A stretch of 40,090 nucleotides of DNA from Candidatus Cloacimonadota bacterium. GTDB taxonomy: Bacteria > Cloacimonadota > Cloacimonadia > Cloacimonadales > Cloacimonadaceae. The translations under genes and the position numbers were made by a program. Below, in pieces: positions 9,829 through 30,506 of the stretch. The stretch covers positions 1 through 40,090 of the forward strand of contig JAQWBI010000016.1 of NCBI GenBank assembly GCA_028706475.1. Reading direction: 5' to 3'. Position 1 is the first letter of the stretch, and every line of letters starts with the position of its first letter. The notes under the pieces are model-generated. The model did not search any database. It saw only the letters and a list, made by a program, of their open reading frames with translations, and was not told where the DNA came from.

Positions 9829-10974
9829 ATGGAATACTTTTTGACTGATGACCAATTGGAAATGCAGGAAATTGCCCGCAGAATTGCCAACGAAAAGATG
9901 AAACCCCTTTCCGAGCATTATGATCAGGAAGGGATATTCCCTTGGGATATAGTGGAAATAATGCGTCAGAGCGACCTCTTTGCCATTCTGATCCCGGAAG
10001 ATTATGACGGCATCAGCGGCAAGGTTATGGATCTCGCCGTTGTCACCGAAGAGCTTTGCGCAGTAGATGCAGGTATTGCGCTGGCATTCGGAGCCACCGG
10101 ATTGGGTATGTATCCCATACTCATCGCTGGGAGTGAAGAGCAAAAGAAGAAATATCTGCCCATCATTGCCGCAGGAGAACAGCTTGCAGCGTTTGCGCTT
10201 ACAGAAGCCAACGCCGGTAGTGACGCCGGAGCCATCGAAACCACTGCCCGCAAAGAGGGAGATTATTATATCCTGAACGGTACCAAACAATGGATCACAA
10301 ATGGCGGCGAAGCGGGCATTTACACTGTATTTGCCATGACGGACAAGAATAAAGGTGCCAGAGGTTGTTCCTGCTTCATAGTAGAGAAAGATACCCCCGG
10401 CTTTACTTTCGGTAAAAAAGAAAACAAAATGGGTATCCGTGCCAGTGCTACTCGAGAACTTATCTTCGAAGACTGCAAAGTTCCTGCGGAAAACCTGCTG
10501 GGTCGCGAAGGCACCGGATTTATCACAGCAATGAAGGTGTTCGACAAATCCCGCCCCATGGTTGGTTCACAGGCCGTCGGCGTTGCCCGCGGAGCCTTTG
10601 AAGCTGCTGCCCGTTATTCCAAAGAACGCCAACAGTTTGGCAAACCTATCTCCAGCTTCCAAGCCATTCAGTTTATGCTGGCAGATATGGCCACTCAAAT
10701 CGAAGCAGCGCGCGCTTTAGTGTTTCAAACCGCAAAGATGGTGGATGCCGGCATCAAAAACTACTCCAAAGAAAGCGCTATGTGCAAATACTTTGCCAGC
10801 GATGTGGCAATGAAGGTGACCACCGACGCCGTTCAAATCCTGGGTGGATATGGCTACATGAAAGAGTATCCAGTGGAAAAAATGATGCGCGACGCCAAAA
10901 TCCTGCAAATCTACGAAGGAACAAACCAGATTCAACGCGGAATCGTGGCCTCAAACATCCTCAAAGAGTTCTGA
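9829..10974 (+). CDS. Short-chain acyl-CoA dehydrogenase (butyryl-CoA dehydrogenase-like)
   Basis: This FAD enzyme oxidises, or in fermenters reduces, the alpha-beta bond of short acyl-CoAs. It has 381 residues, normal for the family. The N-terminal helical domain is followed by the FAD-contacting AFALTEANAGSDAGA and WITNGG segments (about 125-160), then the C-terminal helical domain with RQQFGKPISSFQAIQFMLADM. The catalytic base is the glutamate of QIYEGTNQIQRG near residue 365, the position used by short-chain, butyryl-CoA and glutaryl-type enzymes. No electron-transfer flavoprotein genes are next to it, so its partner must lie elsewhere. It starts an operon: the next ATG lies two bases past its stop. 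Confidence 0.93.
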   Translation: MEYFLTDDQLEMQEIARRIANEKMKPLSEHYDQEGIFPWDIVEIMRQSDLFAILIPEDYDGISGKVMDLAVVTEELCAVDAGIALAFGATGLGMYPILIAGSEEQKKKYLPIIAAGEQLAAFALTEANAGSDAGAIETTARKEGDYYILNGTKQWITNGGEAGIYTVFAMTDKNKGARGCSCFIVEKDTPGFTFGKKENKMGIRASATRELIFEDCKVPAENLLGREGTGFITAMKVFDKSRPMVGSQAVGVARGAFEAAARYSKERQQFGKPISSFQAIQFMLADMATQIEAARALVFQTAKMVDAGIKNYSKESAMCKYFASDVAMKVTTDAVQILGGYGYMKEYPVEKMMRDAKILQIYEGTNQIQRGIVASNILKEF

Positions 10975-10976
10975 TA

Positions 10977-11312
10977 ATGCACGAGTGGATTGAAGAGCTG
11001 CCCGTGGCGATCACTGTTTGCGACACAAACGCCATCATAACTGAAATGAATGAAAAAGCAGCACTTACAAACGCTGCTCATGGCGGCAAAGAGCTCATTG
11101 GACACAGTCTGTACAATTGCCATCAGCCACGCAGTATCGAAATCATACGGCATATGCTGGCCACAGGTGAGCCCAATACATATACCATAGACAAAGCCGG
11201 TCAGAAGAAACTAATCCATCAACAACCCTGGTACAAGGACGGCAAAATTGCGGGATTGGTGGAGTTTTCCATAGTACTGCCCGCCGAAATGCCGCATTAC
11301 ATACGTGGCTAA
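10977..11312 (+). CDS. Single-domain PAS protein
   Basis: This 111-residue protein is essentially one PAS domain with no visible output domain. It begins MHEWIEELPVAITVCDTNAI, then EMNEKAA, GGKELIGHSLYNCHQP (about 35-53) and the closing strands KLIHQQPWYKDGKIAGLVEF. The NCHQP element resembles the DUF438-associated/PAS_10-type PAS found alone in clostridia. The ATG at 10977 lies two bases after the dehydrogenase stop, so it is translationally coupled. The ligand (heme, flavin, fatty acid or none) is not evident. A sensory or protein-interaction role is inferred. Confidence 0.8.
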   Translation: MHEWIEELPVAITVCDTNAIITEMNEKAALTNAAHGGKELIGHSLYNCHQPRSIEIIRHMLATGEPNTYTIDKAGQKKLIHQQPWYKDGKIAGLVEFSIVLPAEMPHYIRG

Positions 11313-11835
11313 GATACTGATCCATACTTGCTGTGCGCCCTGCCTTATAGCGCCCTACAAACAACTGCAAAAGGCAGGGCATCAGCCAGCGGCTTTTTGG
11401 TTCAATCCCAATATCCATCCGCTTTTAGAGTATCAGAGGCGGCGCAATTGTCTGCGTGAATTTGCTGCCAATGAAGGCTTTCCACTCTATGAGCAGGATG
11501 ATTACGGTTTGGTGGATTTTCTGCAACACACCCTGGACAGAATTGATGAACGCTGTGAATACTGTTACTCCACGCGCTTAGAAGCCTGCGCTCAACGTGC
11601 GGCAAAGGAATCTTATCAGGCTTTTAGCACTACCCTCCTTTACAGCCGCTATCAGAAGCACGATCGCATCATCGAAATCTGTGAGGAATTGGCGCTGCGC
11701 TATCATTTGAGCTTTTTTTATGAAGACTGGCGTAAGCTCTGGCAGGACGGCATCAGATTGTCCAAAGAAGCCGGAATGTACCGTCAGCAATATTGCGGTT
11801 GCATATTTAGCGAGAAGGATCGATATAGTGAGTAA
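11305..11835 (+). CDS. queH: Epoxyqueuosine reductase QueH
   Basis: This reductase carries out the last step of queuosine biosynthesis, converting epoxyqueuosine in tRNA to queuosine; QueH is the non-cobalamin alternative to QueG. The 176-residue length and cysteine pattern fit: HTCCAPC (about 7-13), RCEYCY (about 82-87) and QQYCGC near the C-terminus, which bind an iron-sulfur cluster and metal. The start is the GTG at 11305, overlapping the PAS gene by 8 nt; the reading MAKILIHTCCAPC agrees with the family N-terminus. No other queuosine gene is in the window, so its placement with an acyl-CoA dehydrogenase and a PAS protein is not explained by pathway. Confidence 0.9.
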   Translation: MAKILIHTCCAPCLIAPYKQLQKAGHQPAAFWFNPNIHPLLEYQRRRNCLREFAANEGFPLYEQDDYGLVDFLQHTLDRIDERCEYCYSTRLEACAQRAAKESYQAFSTTLLYSRYQKHDRIIEICEELALRYHLSFFYEDWRKLWQDGIRLSKEAGMYRQQYCGCIFSEKDRYSE

Positions 11836-12760
11836 ATACGAAGAGATTAATCTGGATGAAATGAGAGTATATTCCGTGACAGATCGTTTTAGCAAAGTTG
11901 ACCTTTCGCTGTTCGCGCAGAAAGGGGCGGTAAACACTGCTACATTGTTGGAATGCCTGCCGCAAGTCCTCAGTGCCAAGGATATCAAGGAACTGGTGGC
12001 GTCCTGCCGAACAGCCAAAGCCAAAGGTAAAGCTATCATAATCGGAATGGGCGGTCACGTAATCAAATGCGGTCTTGCCCCTCTCATCATAGAATTGATG
12101 GAAGCCGGCTATGTGTCTGCCATAGCAGTGAACGGTTCGGTCGTTATTCACGATTTTGAGATCGCTTTTTGGGGTGCAACATCTGAAGATGTATCCGAGT
12201 CTTTGGCAGATGGTTCATTCGGACTTGCCTTTGAGACATGTCACAACATCAACAGCTGCATCACAAAAGCATCGGAAGAGGGCTTGGGCTTTGGTGAAGC
12301 CATCGGTGCAGAGATACTGAAGAATGCACCGAATGCTGAGATATCCTTGCTGGGAATGGCATATAAACACGGAGTACCTGTAACTGTGCATGTGGCGGTC
12401 GGTACAGACATAATCCATCAAACTCCCTGCGCGGATGGCAAGGCTATCGGGGATTGCTCTTTGAGGGATTTCAGGATTCTGGCACAGAGGATCTGCGGAC
12501 TGCACGACGGAGGTGTGTATCTGAATTTCGGCTCTGCTGTTATCCTGCCCGAAGTGTTCCTGAAAGCGCTGAATACCGCTCGCAATATCCACGGCGAAGT
12601 ACGCAATTTCAGTACCGCAGTGTTCGATATGAACCGGCATTACCGGGCAATGGTGAATGTGGTGCAACGCCCTGTGGAAACTGGCGGAAAAGGGTATTAC
12701 TTTGTCGGTCAGCACGAGCTTTTACTACCGATCTTGATTAAGTCCATTTTGTATAGCTGA
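11828..12760 (+). CDS. Conserved protein of unknown function, Rossmann-like appearance
   Basis: I do not recognise a named family for these 310 residues. Striking stretches are AIIIGMGGHVIKCGLAPLI (about 66-84), AVNGSVVIHDFEIAFWGATS (about 103-122), VTVHVAVGTDIIHQTP and NFGSAVILPEVFLKALN. The glycine-rich segments at strand ends suggest an alpha/beta nucleotide-binding fold, and the general look recalls deoxyhypusine-synthase-like NAD-binding proteins, but that is only an impression. The chosen start is the GTG at 11828, inside queH with an 8-nt overlap, preceded by AGAAGGA at 11813-11819. A longer frame starting at 11720 is overlap with queH. There is no transmembrane or signal segment. It ends the operon. 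Confidence 0.7.
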   Translation: MSKYEEINLDEMRVYSVTDRFSKVDLSLFAQKGAVNTATLLECLPQVLSAKDIKELVASCRTAKAKGKAIIIGMGGHVIKCGLAPLIIELMEAGYVSAIAVNGSVVIHDFEIAFWGATSEDVSESLADGSFGLAFETCHNINSCITKASEEGLGFGEAIGAEILKNAPNAEISLLGMAYKHGVPVTVHVAVGTDIIHQTPCADGKAIGDCSLRDFRILAQRICGLHDGGVYLNFGSAVILPEVFLKALNTARNIHGEVRNFSTAVFDMNRHYRAMVNVVQRPVETGGKGYYFVGQHELLLPILIKSILYS

Positions 12761-13090: not shown

Positions 13091-14410
13091 ATGCGACTAA
13101 AAACCTTTCCTGGGGGTATCCACCCTCACGATCAAAAGCATTATTCGAAAGACGCAACCATCCTAAAGTTTCCCACCCCCAATCGTGTGATCATTCACCT
13201 GTCTCAACACATCGGATCTCCATCCGCTCCCATTGTGGAAGTGGGTGATTCAGTATTGAAGGGGCAGATAATCGCCGAAGCAACCGGCTTTGTTTCACTT
13301 ACTCAACACGCTTCCATCAGTGGTAAAGTAAGTAAGATCGGGAATTTCATGCATCCCACAGGCATCATGTCCACCGCCATCGAAATCACCTCCGACGGGA
13401 TGGATCGAATGATTGATTTGCACGATGATGAGAATTTCATGGAGCTCTCAGTCGATGTCATGAAAGAACGCATCACTGCTGCCGGTATCTGCGGTATGGG
13501 AGGAGCCGGCTTCCCCAGCCACGTAAAGTTAACTCCACCTGCTGATAAGCCCATCGATGTGGCGATTCTGAACGGAGTGGAGTGCGAGCCCTACCTCACC
13601 AGTGACTATCGCCTGATGCTGGAGCGCGCTGAAGACATCATTCACGGTCTGAAAGTGATCATGAAAGTAACAGGTGCCAAAAAAGGGATGATCGGTATAG
13701 AAGCTAATAAACCGGATGCCATTGCTCTGATGCAAAAGCTTTGTGCAAAACACCCAAACCTGGAAGTGGTAGGCCTCAAACTACAATATCCCCAAGGAGC
13801 GGAGAAACAACTGATCTTTGCCGCTACCGGACGCAAAGTACCTGCCGGAGGACTGCCCATGACAGTTGGAGTAGTTGTACAAAACGTCGGTACTGCAGTT
13901 GCCATTTATGAAGCCGTCCGCTATGCAAAACCCCTCATTGAGCGTGTGATCAGCGTTACTGGCTCCATTGTAAAGAAGCCACAGAATTTCCTTGCCCCCA
14001 TTGGTACCATATATAGCGATTTGCTGCAAGCCTGTGATGGCACTACAACTCCCGTCGCAAAAGCTATCTCCGGTGGCCCCATGATGGGCTTTGCCTTGCC
14101 TTCTCTGGATGCAGTCATGACCAAGGGAAGCAGCGGATTGGTGTTAATGAACCAGCAGGAAGCCCGATCCCTGAAAGAACACACCTGCTTGCGCTGCGCC
14201 CGTTGCGTGGACATCTGCCCCATGAATCTGATGCCTTCCCTGATTGCCAACGCTGTAAAGTATCAGGATCTGGATGCTGCAGTAAAAGCAGGGCTGAATG
14301 ACTGCATCAAATGCGGTAGCTGCGCCTACGTGTGCCCCGCCCATATTCGTCTGGTTCAATGGATCGACACAGGCAAGATTCGTTACGCTGAAGCTCAAAG
14401 GAAAAAGTGA
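13091..14410 (+). CDS. rnfC: Rnf complex subunit RnfC (NADH-binding, 4Fe-4S)
   Basis: This is the peripheral cytoplasmic subunit of the Rnf ferredoxin:NAD+ oxidoreductase, which takes electrons to or from NAD(H). It has 439 residues, the size of clostridial RnfC and much shorter than E. coli RsxC. It opens with FPGGIHPHDQK, followed by a biotinyl-like/SLBB-type region, a Rossmann NADH/FMN domain with GMGGAGFPSHVK (about 135-146) and NGVECEPYLTSDYRL. It ends with two [4Fe-4S] motifs, CLRCARCVDICP and CIKCGSCAYVCP (about 365-420). It is first in the six-gene rnfCDGEAB operon, overlapping or touching rnfD. Confidence 0.95.
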   Translation: MRLKTFPGGIHPHDQKHYSKDATILKFPTPNRVIIHLSQHIGSPSAPIVEVGDSVLKGQIIAEATGFVSLTQHASISGKVSKIGNFMHPTGIMSTAIEITSDGMDRMIDLHDDENFMELSVDVMKERITAAGICGMGGAGFPSHVKLTPPADKPIDVAILNGVECEPYLTSDYRLMLERAEDIIHGLKVIMKVTGAKKGMIGIEANKPDAIALMQKLCAKHPNLEVVGLKLQYPQGAEKQLIFAATGRKVPAGGLPMTVGVVVQNVGTAVAIYEAVRYAKPLIERVISVTGSIVKKPQNFLAPIGTIYSDLLQACDGTTTPVAKAISGGPMMGFALPSLDAVMTKGSSGLVLMNQQEARSLKEHTCLRCARCVDICPMNLMPSLIANAVKYQDLDAAVKAGLNDCIKCGSCAYVCPAHIRLVQWIDTGKIRYAEAQRKK

Positions 14411-14412
14411 TT

Positions 14413-15519
14413 ATGAATAGCAATGATAAACTGATCGTCTCCCCCGCTCCCCATGTTCACGACAGAAGCTCGGTGAAGTATGTGATGTGGAATGTGGTGT
14501 TGGCCTTGGTTCCAGCGCTGATATTTGCCACATATTTCTGGGGAGCCAGAGCCCTCTTGCTCAGCCTCACCGGTGCCGTTACTGCTGTAGTGTGTGAAGC
14601 TGTCATTCAGAAACTGCGCAAGGTACCTGTCACTGTCCACGATGGCTCTGCTTTTCTCACGGGATTGCTGCTGGCCTTCAATATTCATGCCGGAGCGCCC
14701 ATCTGGCTGCCGATCGTTGGTGCAGTCTTTGCCATCGCCATCGGAAAGCAAGTCTTTGGCGGATTGGGAAATAACCCAGTTAACCCAGCTCTGTTGGGTC
14801 GTGCTTTCCTGCTTGCCAGTTGGCCTACTCAGATGACAGCCGGATGGGTAGCAGTAAAGAACTCGGCCATGAGCGGCCTGAACGACCTCACCCGGATTGC
14901 CGACAACCTTGCTGAGCTTTCTCCTAAAGCCTATGAATTGGTAACCTCAGCCACTCCTCTGCATGTAGCAAAGACTCTGCGTGATACCAGCTTTGTCTCC
15001 GAGATCAATGCCCAAGCCGGTGGTATCGACCTGGGCAGCAGGATCTTTAGCAGCCTTACCGAGATGGAAACCCTGAAGAGTCTGTTTTGGGGCAATATCG
15101 GTGGCTGCATCGGCGAAGTGTCTGTCTTTGCTCTTCTGCTCGGAGCTGCATACCTGCTCTACAAAAACATCATTGAATGGCGCATCCCTCTCTTCTATAT
15201 AGGTACCGTCTTCGTTCTCAGCTTTATCTTTGGCGGTATCCCCGGAAGCGGAGTATCGGTAATGCTGCCCTTCTTCCACATTTTTTCCGGTGGTTTGATG
15301 CTTGGCGCATTCTTTATGGCAACGGATTATACAACCTCGCCACTTACCAAAAAGGGTAGAATCATATATGGCATAGGTTGCGGACTGCTGACCATCATCA
15401 TCCGCCTCGTGGGTGGATATCCTGAGGGAGTAAGTTACAGTATTCTATTGATGAACGTGTTTACGCCTCTCATCGATATGCTCACTATGCCAAAGCCTTT
15501 TGGGAGGGTGAAGAAATGA
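14413..15519 (+). CDS. rnfD: Rnf complex membrane subunit RnfD
   Basis: This integral membrane subunit of Rnf carries a covalently bound FMN and takes part in ion translocation. It has about 368 residues with multiple hydrophobic helices. VTSATPLHVAKTL (about 176-188) holds the threonine to which FMN is attached in RnfD/NqrB proteins. GNNPVNPALLGRAFLLASWP is the conserved NPA segment. I chose the ATG at 14413, because AAGGA at about 14398-14402 is well spaced for it. A GTG at 14407 overlapping the rnfC stop is the alternative and adds two residues. The end overlaps rnfG by 4 nt. Confidence 0.94.
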   Translation: MNSNDKLIVSPAPHVHDRSSVKYVMWNVVLALVPALIFATYFWGARALLLSLTGAVTAVVCEAVIQKLRKVPVTVHDGSAFLTGLLLAFNIHAGAPIWLPIVGAVFAIAIGKQVFGGLGNNPVNPALLGRAFLLASWPTQMTAGWVAVKNSAMSGLNDLTRIADNLAELSPKAYELVTSATPLHVAKTLRDTSFVSEINAQAGGIDLGSRIFSSLTEMETLKSLFWGNIGGCIGEVSVFALLLGAAYLLYKNIIEWRIPLFYIGTVFVLSFIFGGIPGSGVSVMLPFFHIFSGGLMLGAFFMATDYTTSPLTKKGRIIYGIGCGLLTIIIRLVGGYPEGVSYSILLMNVFTPLIDMLTMPKPFGRVKK

Positions 15520-16064
15520 AGTACTATATCAAACTGTCCCTGATCCTTCTGGCCTTTTGCGTAGTTGCCAGCGGTATTCTGGCCTATGTGAACGGCCTTA
15601 CCGCTCCGGTGATTGCCGCACGAAAAGCTCAGACCGAGATCGACACGCGCCAAGCCCTGATTCCCGGAGCAGAATTCACTGAAGCACAAACTGCCGATGG
15701 AGCACAGTATTTCATAGCTTATGATCCTGCCACACAAGATACTTTAGGCTACACCTTCATCTCCGCTGAAACCGGATATTCCAGCACCGTGAAGACTATG
15801 GTTGGTATGGATAAAGATTTCAAGGTACTTGCCATCAAAGTGCTTGATCATGCTGAAACCCCTGGACTGGGCGCAAATTGCACCAGCGAGAGTTTCACCG
15901 GTCAGTTTTCCGGGTTAACTGTGGATCAGCTCAAAGTAGATAAAGATGGTGGAGCTGTTGTATCGCTGTCCGGTGCTACCATCACCTCCAGATGTATAGC
16001 AAATTCGATCCGCACTAGGATAACTGCAGTACAAAGCGATATAAATGCCGGAGGCGCAGAATGA
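15516..16064 (+). CDS. rnfG: Rnf complex subunit RnfG (FMN-binding)
   Basis: This subunit has a single N-terminal membrane helix (residues about 5-25) and a periplasmic FMN domain. The SGATIT motif at 152-157 fits the flavin-transferase recognition sequence, and Thr155 is the expected site of the phosphoester-linked FMN. The length of 182 residues is typical. HAETPGLGANC (112-122) is also conserved in RnfG/NqrC. Its ATGA overlaps rnfD by 4 nt, and its end overlaps rnfE by 4 nt. An ApbE-type flavin transferase is needed for maturation and is not seen in this window. Confidence 0.94.
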   Translation: MKYYIKLSLILLAFCVVASGILAYVNGLTAPVIAARKAQTEIDTRQALIPGAEFTEAQTADGAQYFIAYDPATQDTLGYTFISAETGYSSTVKTMVGMDKDFKVLAIKVLDHAETPGLGANCTSESFTGQFSGLTVDQLKVDKDGGAVVSLSGATITSRCIANSIRTRITAVQSDINAGGAE

Positions 16065-16651
16065 ACTTTATTAAAGAACTAACCAAAGGTATTATCAAAG
16101 AGAATCCCATCTTTGTAATAGTATTGGGCATGTGCCCCACTCTTGCCGTTTCCACTTCGGTGCAAAACGCCCTGGGTATGGGTCTTGCCGCCACATTTGT
16201 GCTAATCTGCTCAAACATCATGATTTCTCTGATCAAGAATATCACTCCGCCCAGCATCCGCATCCCGATCTATGTAGTGGTGATTGCCGCCTTCGTATCG
16301 ATCGTGGATATGGTGATGTCGGCTTATATTCCCGCTCTGCACAAAAGTCTGGGAATCTTCATTCCCCTCATCGTGGTAAATTGCATCATCCTTGGCCGTG
16401 CGGAAGCTTTTGCAAATAGAAACACAGTGATCATGAGCATAGCTGATGCCATCGGTATGGGGCTGGGTTTCACCCTTTCTCTCAGCGTGGTAGCAACCAT
16501 CCGGGAAATCCTGGGTGCCGGCACCTGGCTGGGTATCAAGGTCACCCCGCAAACCTATGATCCGATGCTGATGGCGATCCTGGCTCCCGGAGCTTTTATC
16601 ACTCTGGGCTTCTTGATGGCGCTGATTAACATGTTGAAGGAGAAGAAATAA
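16061..16651 (+). CDS. rnfE: Rnf complex membrane subunit RnfE
   Basis: This is a six-helix-type integral membrane subunit paralogous to RnfA; together they form the central core of Rnf. It has 196 residues, starting MNFIKELTKGIIKENPIFVI, then LGMCPTLAVSTSVQNALGMG, whose conserved Cys lies in the half-membrane helix that holds the shared intramembrane iron cluster. IPLIVVNCIILGRAEAFANR gives the second conserved cysteine. It is coupled on both sides: a 4-nt overlap with rnfG and a 1-nt overlap with rnfA. Confidence 0.95.
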   Translation: MNFIKELTKGIIKENPIFVIVLGMCPTLAVSTSVQNALGMGLAATFVLICSNIMISLIKNITPPSIRIPIYVVVIAAFVSIVDMVMSAYIPALHKSLGIFIPLIVVNCIILGRAEAFANRNTVIMSIADAIGMGLGFTLSLSVVATIREILGAGTWLGIKVTPQTYDPMLMAILAPGAFITLGFLMALINMLKEKK

Positions 16652-18316: not shown

Positions 18317-18348
18317 CCCGGATCACTTGTTGTTCCGGGTTCTTTTTG
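18317..18348 (+). terminator. Rho-independent terminator of the Rnf operon
   Basis: CCCGGA (18317-18322) pairs with TCCGGG (18334-18339) across an 11-nt loop, and the stem is followed by TTCTTTTT (18340-18347). It lies 26 nt after the rnfB stop and fits the end of the rnfCDGEAB transcript. Confidence 0.75.
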
Positions 18349-18575
18349 TATCCTGCTGCAGGAGCCATTTGAATCAATATCGTGCCCCTCTTGGTGGAGG
18401 GGCACGGGATTTTGACTTAGGAGGTTGCTCATCGTGGGTTCTTCATCCACGTTTATCGGCAGGGGATACCGATAAGGAGTCTTATATATACAGAGCAAAC
18501 TTCAGGCTAAAACGTGATTTTATGTATATCCATATTTTACAGATTGTTAGCAATACGCACTATAGCCCCCTTATC

Positions 18576-18605
18576 TGGAATTGTGGAAATCATTCCACAA
18601 TTCCA
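18576..18605. repeat. Perfect 13-bp inverted repeat with 4-nt loop
   Basis: TGGAATTGTGGAA (18576-18588) is followed by ATCA and then its exact reverse complement TTCCACAATTCCA (18593-18605). No T-tract follows on either side, so it is not a standard terminator. It could be an operator, a structured RNA element or the remnant of a mobile-element end. Confidence 0.8.
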
Positions 18606-18803
18606 CCGATTATGGCAGTTGTCTTTTCGATATCTGATACGATTCCAATCCGGCTCTCCAAGTTTTGCATTGCGGATGGCAATGTTCCAAGACACTTTAT
18701 CTCATTATCCTTGACGATACCGGGGAATCTCTTGACAGAAACCAAGATAAATAAATCTTGTAAAGAAATTTGTGGATCAAGAATCCGTGTATTATTGGAC
18801 TGT

Positions 18804-19790
18804 ATGATGACTAGTATTCTGAAACGAACATATCTGGTAACCGGTGGTGCGGGCTTTATCGGTTCTCATCTTTGCGAAGCCTTATTGGAGCAAGGCGGAG
18901 AAGTGATCTGCCTGGACAATTTATGTGATTTCTACGATCCTGATATCAAGCTGGCAAATCTGCGAAATATGCTATCTCAGCCGAATTTCAGCTTTATCAA
19001 AGCCGATATCCGGGATGCCCAAGCACTGAATCATATATTCTCCTTCAATAATATCGATATGTTGATCCATATAGCGGCCATGGCAGGAGTTCGCCCCTCA
19101 ATCCAAAATCCGGATTTGTACTATGACGTAAACCTCATGGGAACGCTGCGACTCTTGGAAATGTGCCGCGCTTATGGCGTAAACAAGCTTGTTTTTGCGT
19201 CTTCCTCGTCAGTGTACGGAAACAACCGGGTACCCTTCTCGGAAAGTGACCCGGTGGACAATCCCATTTCTCCCTACGCCGCAAGCAAAAAAGCAGCGGA
19301 ATTGATGTGTCATACATGGCATTATCTCCACGATATCTCCACTATTTGTCTTAGGTTTTTCACAGTTTATGGTCCGCGCCAGCGCCCGGATTTGGCGATT
19401 CACAAGTTTGCCCGGGATATATTGGCTGATAGAGCTATCACCATGTTCGGATCTGGCTCCAGCGCAAGAGATTATACTTATGTGGACGATATTATTCAGG
19501 GTGTAATAAAAGCTATTGAACGCTTGGAAGATTCCAGCGAAAAGCTGTATGAGATATACAATTTGGGCAATTCCAGCCCTATCACTCTGCAGGATATGAT
19601 TAAGAGATTGGAGCATGCTTTGGGAAAGAAAGCGAAGATTCGCTGTAAGGACATGCAGCCAGGTGATGTCGAGTGTACCTATGCTGATATCAGCAAAGCA
19701 GAAGAAGCTTTACATTACAAGCCCCAAACCGAATTTGAGGAGGGTTTGGCGAAATTTTGCTCCTGGCTGATGCAAAACACTAAGGATTGA
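18804..19790 (+). CDS. NAD-dependent sugar epimerase, UDP-glucuronate 4-epimerase-like
   Basis: This is an extended short-chain dehydrogenase of 328 residues that interconverts nucleotide sugars. The NAD-binding TGGAGFIGSH lies at about 13-22, VFASSSSVYG carries the catalytic serine, and SPYAASKKAAE carries the YxxxK pair. FFTVYGPRQRPDLAIHKF and SARDYTYVDDIIQG follow the pattern of UDP-glucuronate/UDP-galacturonate epimerases. The start is taken at the ATG of 18804 (another ATG follows directly). A frame running upstream to 18327 crosses the hairpin region and is not supported. The ribosome-binding site is poor. It probably supplies a sugar to the surface glycan made by the minus-strand operon downstream, though it faces that operon convergently. 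Confidence 0.88.
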   Translation: MMTSILKRTYLVTGGAGFIGSHLCEALLEQGGEVICLDNLCDFYDPDIKLANLRNMLSQPNFSFIKADIRDAQALNHIFSFNNIDMLIHIAAMAGVRPSIQNPDLYYDVNLMGTLRLLEMCRAYGVNKLVFASSSSVYGNNRVPFSESDPVDNPISPYAASKKAAELMCHTWHYLHDISTICLRFFTVYGPRQRPDLAIHKFARDILADRAITMFGSGSSARDYTYVDDIIQGVIKAIERLEDSSEKLYEIYNLGNSSPITLQDMIKRLEHALGKKAKIRCKDMQPGDVECTYADISKAEEALHYKPQTEFEEGLAKFCSWLMQNTKD

Positions 19791-30429: not shown

Positions 30430-30506
30430 TGGCACGCCCTAAGGGAGTCGAACCCCTAACCTTCTGATCCGTAGTCAGATGCTCTATCCAATTGAGCTAA
30501 GGGCGC
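30430..30506 (-). tRNA. tRNA-Arg (anticodon ACG)
   Basis: The minus strand folds as a standard cloverleaf. The acceptor arm is GCGCCCT with AGGGCGT (a G-U at position 1-72), the D-arm contains AGCTCAATTGGATAGAGC, and the anticodon stem TCTGA/TCAGA encloses loop CTACGGA with anticodon ACG. The T-arm is AGGGGTTCGACTCCC. Discriminator G and an encoded CCA (30432-30430) complete it. Anticodon ACG is normally modified to ICG by TadA to read CGU, CGC and CGA. Confidence 0.97.

Follow-up and report, generated by a model that had tools for sequence, protein, structure and literature searches.

We propose that the GSU2086 family, represented by a 310-residue protein in the window (the whole stretch of DNA analysed here, 40,090 nucleotides of a Candidatus Cloacimonadota contig), probably provides a non-homologous, NAD-dependent replacement for the ADP-heptose 6-epimerase HldD. 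The gene is real, conserved and assigned to a family; heptose 6-epimerisation as its function is a proposal that we make with moderate confidence. In the reaction that we infer, bound NAD+ would oxidise the seven-carbon sugar to a ketone at C6; once the opposite face of the oxidised sugar is presented, the NADH so formed would reduce the ketone and give the L-glycero form for the LPS inner core. The substrate may be ADP-heptose or an earlier heptose phosphate. HldD (TIGR02197), the ADP-glyceromanno-heptose 6-epimerase, has the same role as that proposed for the GSU2086 protein, and genomes rarely carry both. HldD belongs to the SDR proteins and its sequence also matches GalE, whereas the GSU2086 protein has a DHS-like fold; no SDR or HldD match to the window protein was found up to an E value of 1 in Pfam or NCBIfam. 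HldD is described as an NAD+-dependent C6 epimerase that acts in the step after ADP-D,D-heptose (PMC10948575). If our proposal is correct, it fills a missing heptose epimerase step in Geobacter relatives, Acidobacteriota, Poribacteria and Cloacimonadota, and gives a function to a family so far named only after a Geobacter locus.

The gene (11828-12760, + strand, GTG start) is the last of four that all lie on the + strand. It follows genes for an acyl-CoA dehydrogenase (9829-10974; over the Pfam cut-offs of PF00441, PF02770 and PF02771, Acyl-CoA_dh 1, M and N, and at 453 bits under the cut-off of 640 of NCBIfam NF042972), a PAS-only protein (10977-11312; PF08448, PAS_4, 27.3 bits, cut-off 23.1) and the epoxyqueuosine reductase QueH (11305-11835, GTG start; PF02677, 190 bits). 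Their spacing is as a preliminary description of this DNA had claimed, with a 2-nt gap between the dehydrogenase and PAS genes and 8-nt overlaps between the PAS gene and queH and between queH and the 310-residue ORF. The same description called the last protein unassigned, which holds for its function and not for its family: it matches the NCBIfam model NF052581, 'GSU2086 family protein', with 391.1 bits (cut-off 250, E 3.9e-117) over nearly its full length, residues 7-305 of 310 aligning to profile positions 2-300 of 301. Since NF052581 comes without a function, the protein is known by family, not by function. Pfam gave sub-threshold matches only, the best being ArgZ-like_C_2nd at 22.9 bits (cut-off 27). 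The window's genome has a single copy of the gene and groups with Cloacimonadota, the nearest relatives, 73% identical, being Cloacimonadota MAGs. Two copies each were seen in five genomes (G155, G352, G409, G450 and G510) of another phylum, that of the relative locus L070 (Terriglobia), which we refer to as the G155 phylum.

The close spacing of the four genes had suggested a functional unit with queH, the PAS gene and the dehydrogenase gene. This did not hold up: the dehydrogenase-queH pair stands without the GSU2086 gene, and elsewhere that gene is found at heptose and LPS loci. In the window's phylum, the GSU2086-family gene was found in 77 of 124 genomes at E <= 1e-3 (74 over the cut-off), and QueH in 101 of the 124, many of them without a GSU2086-family gene. 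The preliminary description had called for a survey of the queH pairing. In this phylum, 68 genomes have both genes, and queH immediately precedes the GSU2086 gene in 41 of them; the count is 36 of 37 for the window's own family (f1), but 0/17 for family f10 and 0/8 for family f13, where 5 of the 8 have queH on the same contig at a greater distance upstream. Counts of directly upstream neighbours are minima because some called ORF starts are over-trimmed and spurious ORFs are present, and each neighbouring gene cluster was named from a single representative. The dehydrogenase and queH genes are adjacent or separated by a short gap in all nine loci examined that lack the GSU2086 gene (L193-L201, from 9 of 30 such genomes). 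The persistence of this pair and the family-dependent order suggest that the pairing reflects lineage gene order, with the GSU2086 gene as an optional insert, and the coupling to queH, PAS and dehydrogenase genes is probably incidental. Acyl-CoA dehydrogenase and queH genes form a conserved pair in these Cloacimonadota loci.

These data also bear on whether the GSU2086 protein is a queuosine-related enzyme coupled to QueH, or to Tgt in family f10. The 41 genomes with queH directly upstream favour such a role, as do 8 loci of another Cloacimonadota group in which a tgt-type gene precedes the GSU2086 gene (one representative was named by Pfam, and repeats of one genome are possible). Two queuosine genes as alternate neighbours are an odd coincidence. 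However, the many genomes with QueH and no GSU2086 gene, the dehydrogenase-queH pair in its absence, and the frequent location of the gene at heptose or LPS loci outside the window's phylum make a queuosine function very unlikely. More generally, the QueH distribution, the queH-position survey and the persistence of the pair lend no support to a queuosine, regulatory or fatty-acid pathway shared with the window neighbours. The ORFs after queH in three of the loci that lack the GSU2086 gene (L199-L201), 61-64% alike, were also considered; a weak match was found in L199 only and was dismissed as chance. By eye, all three resemble panB.

The window protein was aligned with sequences from 53 of 80 relative loci, 46-74% identical to it (alignment A1, 54 sequences); some relative loci and phylum genomes are possibly one genome sampled twice. 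Fifty-three columns of A1 are invariant. The three glycine-rich segments singled out in the preliminary description are all present, and since many of their positions show little or no variation across the 54 sequences, we consider them genuine signatures and not chance. In GMGGHVIKCG (residues 73-82; 12044-12073, + strand), G75, H77, V78, K80 and G82 are invariant. The same applies to N102, G103, H108, D109 and E111 in NGSVVIHDFE (residues 102-111; 12131-12160, + strand), and to G235, S236, V238, P241, E242 and F244 in the family signature NFGSAVILPEVF (residues 233-244; 12524-12559, + strand). The family profile aligns the GGHVIKCG and HD.E segments to ArgZ, AgrE and 3c2q. The first segment falls in the stretch aligned to the Rossmann domain of ArgZ/AgrE (6juy/3c2q), and HD.E is common to ArgZ, AgrE and 3c2q in the alignment.

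The AlphaFold model of the protein (pLDDT 94.8, pTM 0.93) agrees with the earlier guess of an alpha/beta nucleotide-binding fold of the DHS-like NAD-binding type. Searches with Foldseek and VIA-align matched most of the model length to DHS-fold structures, with VIA-align Z scores of 19.0-21.2. Deoxyhypusine synthase 8put_A shares the fold with Z 21.2, 276 aligned residues and an rmsd of 3.9, and differs in sequence (PF01916, 8put, 1dhs), with 13% identity to the window protein. AgrE 6lrf_B (Z 20.2) and 3c2q_A (Z 19.0) likewise have their fold in common with it. The fold suggests that the GSU2086 protein binds NAD. DHS and AgrE-type enzymes of this fold oxidise a substrate with NAD and then re-reduce it, acting on amines with one NAD and in a redox-neutral manner. 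This is the same logic as that of a redox epimerase. The DHS-like fold is known for polyamine and amino-acid chemistry, and our proposal, if true, would add a sugar epimerase to it.

Could the GSU2086 protein instead be a true deoxyhypusine synthase, homospermidine synthase or ornithine cyclodeaminase? The fold match at Z 19-21 and the weak family scores point in this direction, but those scores fall far short of what NCBIfam requires for the functional DHS-fold families. On the deoxyhypusine synthase models the window protein scored 18.9 against 304.25 bits (TIGR00321) and 21.8 against 27 bits (PF01916), on the homospermidine synthase model 15.2 against 450 bits, and on the AgrE/ArgZ models 21.2 against 410.8 bits (TIGR00300) and 22.9 against 27 bits (PF21570). 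PF21570 is passed by GSU2086 relatives in L079, L204 and L205, with 27.7, 30 and 30.3 bits. About 60-120 residues align by sequence to the C-terminal ornithine cyclodeaminase domain of AgrE/ArgZ (6lrf/6juy), whose genomic setting differs. The catalytic lysine of human deoxyhypusine synthase is K329; judged from the A1 columns only, no lysine is invariant among residues 251-310 of the window protein. Together with the linkage to heptose operons described below, the scores make it extremely unlikely that the protein is one of these known enzymes. The TIGR00300 model carries the label 'nickel-pincer nucleotide-dependent'.

The linkage to heptose operons is clearest in the class of G126 (L080, Malonomonas rubra). 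There 71 of 82 genomes have the GSU2086 gene and hldE on one strand and no more than 5.5 kb apart (counted among the HldE matches listed, which cover 82 of the 86 genomes with both genes); 10 of the other 11 have the two genes on different contigs, and in G240 they are far apart. Among 13 loci of this kind (those of 16 chosen that had a called ORF), five have gmhA directly upstream and hldE downstream (L050, L056, L059, L061 and L077), and four of the five also have gmhB. In L054, hldE is six places off, and no hldE is in view in L074. The cluster representatives were confirmed on curated models (gmhA, TIGR00441; hldE adenylyltransferase, TIGR02199; gmhB, TIGR00213). WaaP/Kdo-type kinases are near the gene in some loci, and 30 of 41 loci in Poribacteria have an O-antigen-ligase-type gene, named by Pfam from one representative, immediately ahead of it. 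A natural fusion in Latescibacterota (L079:9992-11419) joins a GSU2086 domain to a TIGR02199 heptose-1-phosphate adenylyltransferase domain (192 bits, cut-off 181.5), and this fusion ORF sits behind an ORF of the gmhB cluster. The canonical operons thus carry the GSU2086 gene together with genes for GmhA, HldE and GmhB, which lead from sedoheptulose 7-phosphate to ADP-D,D-heptose. As the operons reach ADP-D,D-heptose, the genomes mostly lack HldD and the DHS-type NAD logic suits an epimerase, replacement of HldD is the simplest reading. Since the canonical operons contain both GmhA and GmhB, we put aside the idea that one of these is what is replaced.

The family is named after a gene of Geobacter sulfurreducens. 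GSU2086 (NF052581) lies between hldE and gmhA in that organism; the window gene differs in lying behind queH. In a Tn-seq study of G. sulfurreducens on electrodes, the values for insertions in hldE (GSU2085), GSU2086 and gmhA (GSU2087) were -3.1, -3.2 and -3.7 (PMC5585712, Table 1), like values to which polar effects inside one operon may contribute. GSU2086 is described there as a 'hypothetical cytoplasmic protein in sugar biosynthesis operon' (PMC5585712). The epimerase role, if true, would help explain the importance of GSU2086 in electrode growth. Among the matches listed from the open-licence PMC literature, no title or abstract opening proposes a heptose-epimerase role for the GSU2086 family.

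The distribution of HldD across genomes provided further insights. Of the 124 genomes in the window's phylum, 77 have GSU2086 and 17 HldD over the cut-off, and none has both; counted by genus (n=50), the numbers are 27, 14 and 0 (p 8.7e-7). The G126 class (194 genomes) has GSU2086 in 88, HldD in 63 (62 over the cut-off and one fragment under it) and both in 7, against 28.6 expected. In the G155 phylum (199 genomes), GSU2086 is found in 62 (61 over the cut-off), HldD in 50 and both in 2, against 15.6 expected. When the three groups are combined in a stratified analysis of 517 genomes, both are found in 9 against 54.7 expected (z -9.7). All of these counts and tests leave kinship uncorrected. 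The two occur together in these 9 genomes of the three groups, and besides them in G146.

The avoidance is specific to HldD, and HldE is not avoided. HldE is over the cut-off in 110 of the 124 genomes of the window's phylum and is present in 86 of the 88 GSU2086 carriers of the G126 class. Among 39 carriers from several phyla (39 of 40 loci, L026 being left out, in partial overlap with the three groups), HldE was found in 36 at E <= 1e-45 (33 over the cut-off) and HldD in 2. In the window's genome, the GSU2086 gene is on contig C16 and hldE on C17; the heptose kinase and adenylyltransferase are split genes there, on another contig than the GSU2086 gene. Genomes without HldE have neither enzyme in 27 of 33 cases in the G126 class, but in only 6 of 14 in the window's phylum. 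Conversely, and against our proposal, 24 of 110 HldE-positive genomes in the window's phylum and 23 of 161 in the G126 class have neither GSU2086 nor HldD. These include the rather complete genomes G018, G019, G020 and G023, three of which (G018, G019 and G023) are at least 95% complete. Such genomes fit a dispensable tailoring step, with D,D-heptose used as such, and could equally hide a third epimerase.

We also considered whether kinship could account for the exclusion. A tree of HldE was built from 68 genomes of the G126 class (26 of 79 with GSU2086 only, 27 of 52 with HldD only, 7 of 7 with both and 8 of 23 with neither), by a quick method without bootstrap and with long rows flagged. Among rows with just one of the two, GSU2086 and HldD are exchanged at least six times, and 12 changes are needed for the GSU2086 gene and 9 for HldD. 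When labels were shuffled, the rows never clustered as well as the real GSU2086-only and HldD-only rows. In a strict independent-pairs test on well-supported branches of the 68-row tree, 2.2 pairs were opposite, 0.1 the same and 5.8 without a difference, which is not significant (median p 0.5). The switches in the tree therefore support repeated exchange, while the correlation is not proven free of ancestry.

A different explanation for the missing HldD is that an SDR enzyme does its work, the GSU2086 protein serving the envelope in some unrelated way. The window's genome has no HldD over the TIGR02197 cut-off, and its best match to that model lies in the window itself (18834-19775, 139.6 bits, cut-off 274.6), within an SDR protein (18327-19790, + strand). 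Proteins of this type that score weakly on TIGR02197 are present in 76 of the 77 GSU2086 carriers in the window's phylum. But the window SDR protein fits the GalE model better (217 bits, again short of the cut-off), and among the matches listed, weak SDR matches are present in HldD genomes too. In addition, the HldD-model scores in this phylum are bimodal, at least 388 or at most 158 bits among the matches listed. A stand-in of the SDR type is therefore unlikely.

It is possible, although doubtful, that the GSU2086 protein acts at a different step of the heptose pathway and converts heptose, in a phosphate or ADP form, to another sugar, HldD being unneeded because the inner core holds that sugar. 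The linkage, fusion and HldD-avoidance data would look the same, and two divergent plasmid clusters suggest other sugars. One, in a Solidesulfovibrio plasmid (L204:6456-9537), has a nucleotidyltransferase-kinase fusion in the order opposite to HldE, followed by GSU2086 and an overlapping SIS isomerase; it lies among sialic-acid-type genes, near a pseF-annotated gene, and its HldE-like kinase and GmhA-like isomerase are divergent and under the cut-offs. The other, in a Chloroflexota plasmid (L205:5700-10402), encodes an oxidoreductase, a HAD hydrolase, GSU2086, an HldE-kinase-like PfkB protein and a GmhA-like isomerase, with a sugar ABC transporter ahead; the kinase-like, isomerase-like and HAD proteins are all under the HldE/GmhA cut-offs. 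No adenylyltransferase was found among six L205 proteins scanned or among the annotated names, which counts against our proposal; the substrate of the GSU2086 protein there may be a sugar phosphate or a different sugar. Against a different step, the remaining genes of the canonical operons are those of the ADP-beta-heptose route, as judged from representatives, the epimerase being the absent one, and the sharp avoidance of HldD is most simply explained by a shared function. Replacement of HldD hence remains our preferred reading. A broader and more speculative idea is that this widespread DHS-fold family sets heptose C6 stereochemistry in a way that has nothing in common with HldD, perhaps acting on sugar phosphates ahead of nucleotide activation, and travels with kinase and isomerase modules on plasmids and viral-classed contigs, outside the canonical LPS pathways.

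Eight loci with GSU2086 were found on viral contigs, and HldE-type genes are nearby in two of them (L209 and L213). In L209, a contig classed as viral, the GSU2086 gene overlaps an adenylyltransferase gene on one side and a heptose kinase gene on the other; both neighbours are just under the HldE-type cut-offs (177 against 181.5 bits and 306.6 against 345 bits, respectively). The viral-classed L213 (4616-9221) has a heptose-kinase-like gene, a caspase-type peptidase gene, a partial GSU2086-like ORF and a heptose-adenylyltransferase-like gene. On an IMG/VR contig (L212:452-2847), a lambda-type phage portal gene comes immediately after a GSU2086-like gene, and the viral-classed contigs L210 and L211 also carry a GSU2086-like stretch. 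A tblastn search of 50,697 phage records gave no GSU2086 match.

Elsewhere in the window, a tRNA-Arg gene (anticodon acg; 30430-30506, - strand) is the sole Rfam match at gathering level. About 330 nt downstream of the GSU2086 gene, a run of close or overlapping genes (13091-16651, + strand) presumably encodes an Rnf complex, from its resemblance by eye. Genes of the same clusters also follow in the Cloacimonadota relatives L001-L005.
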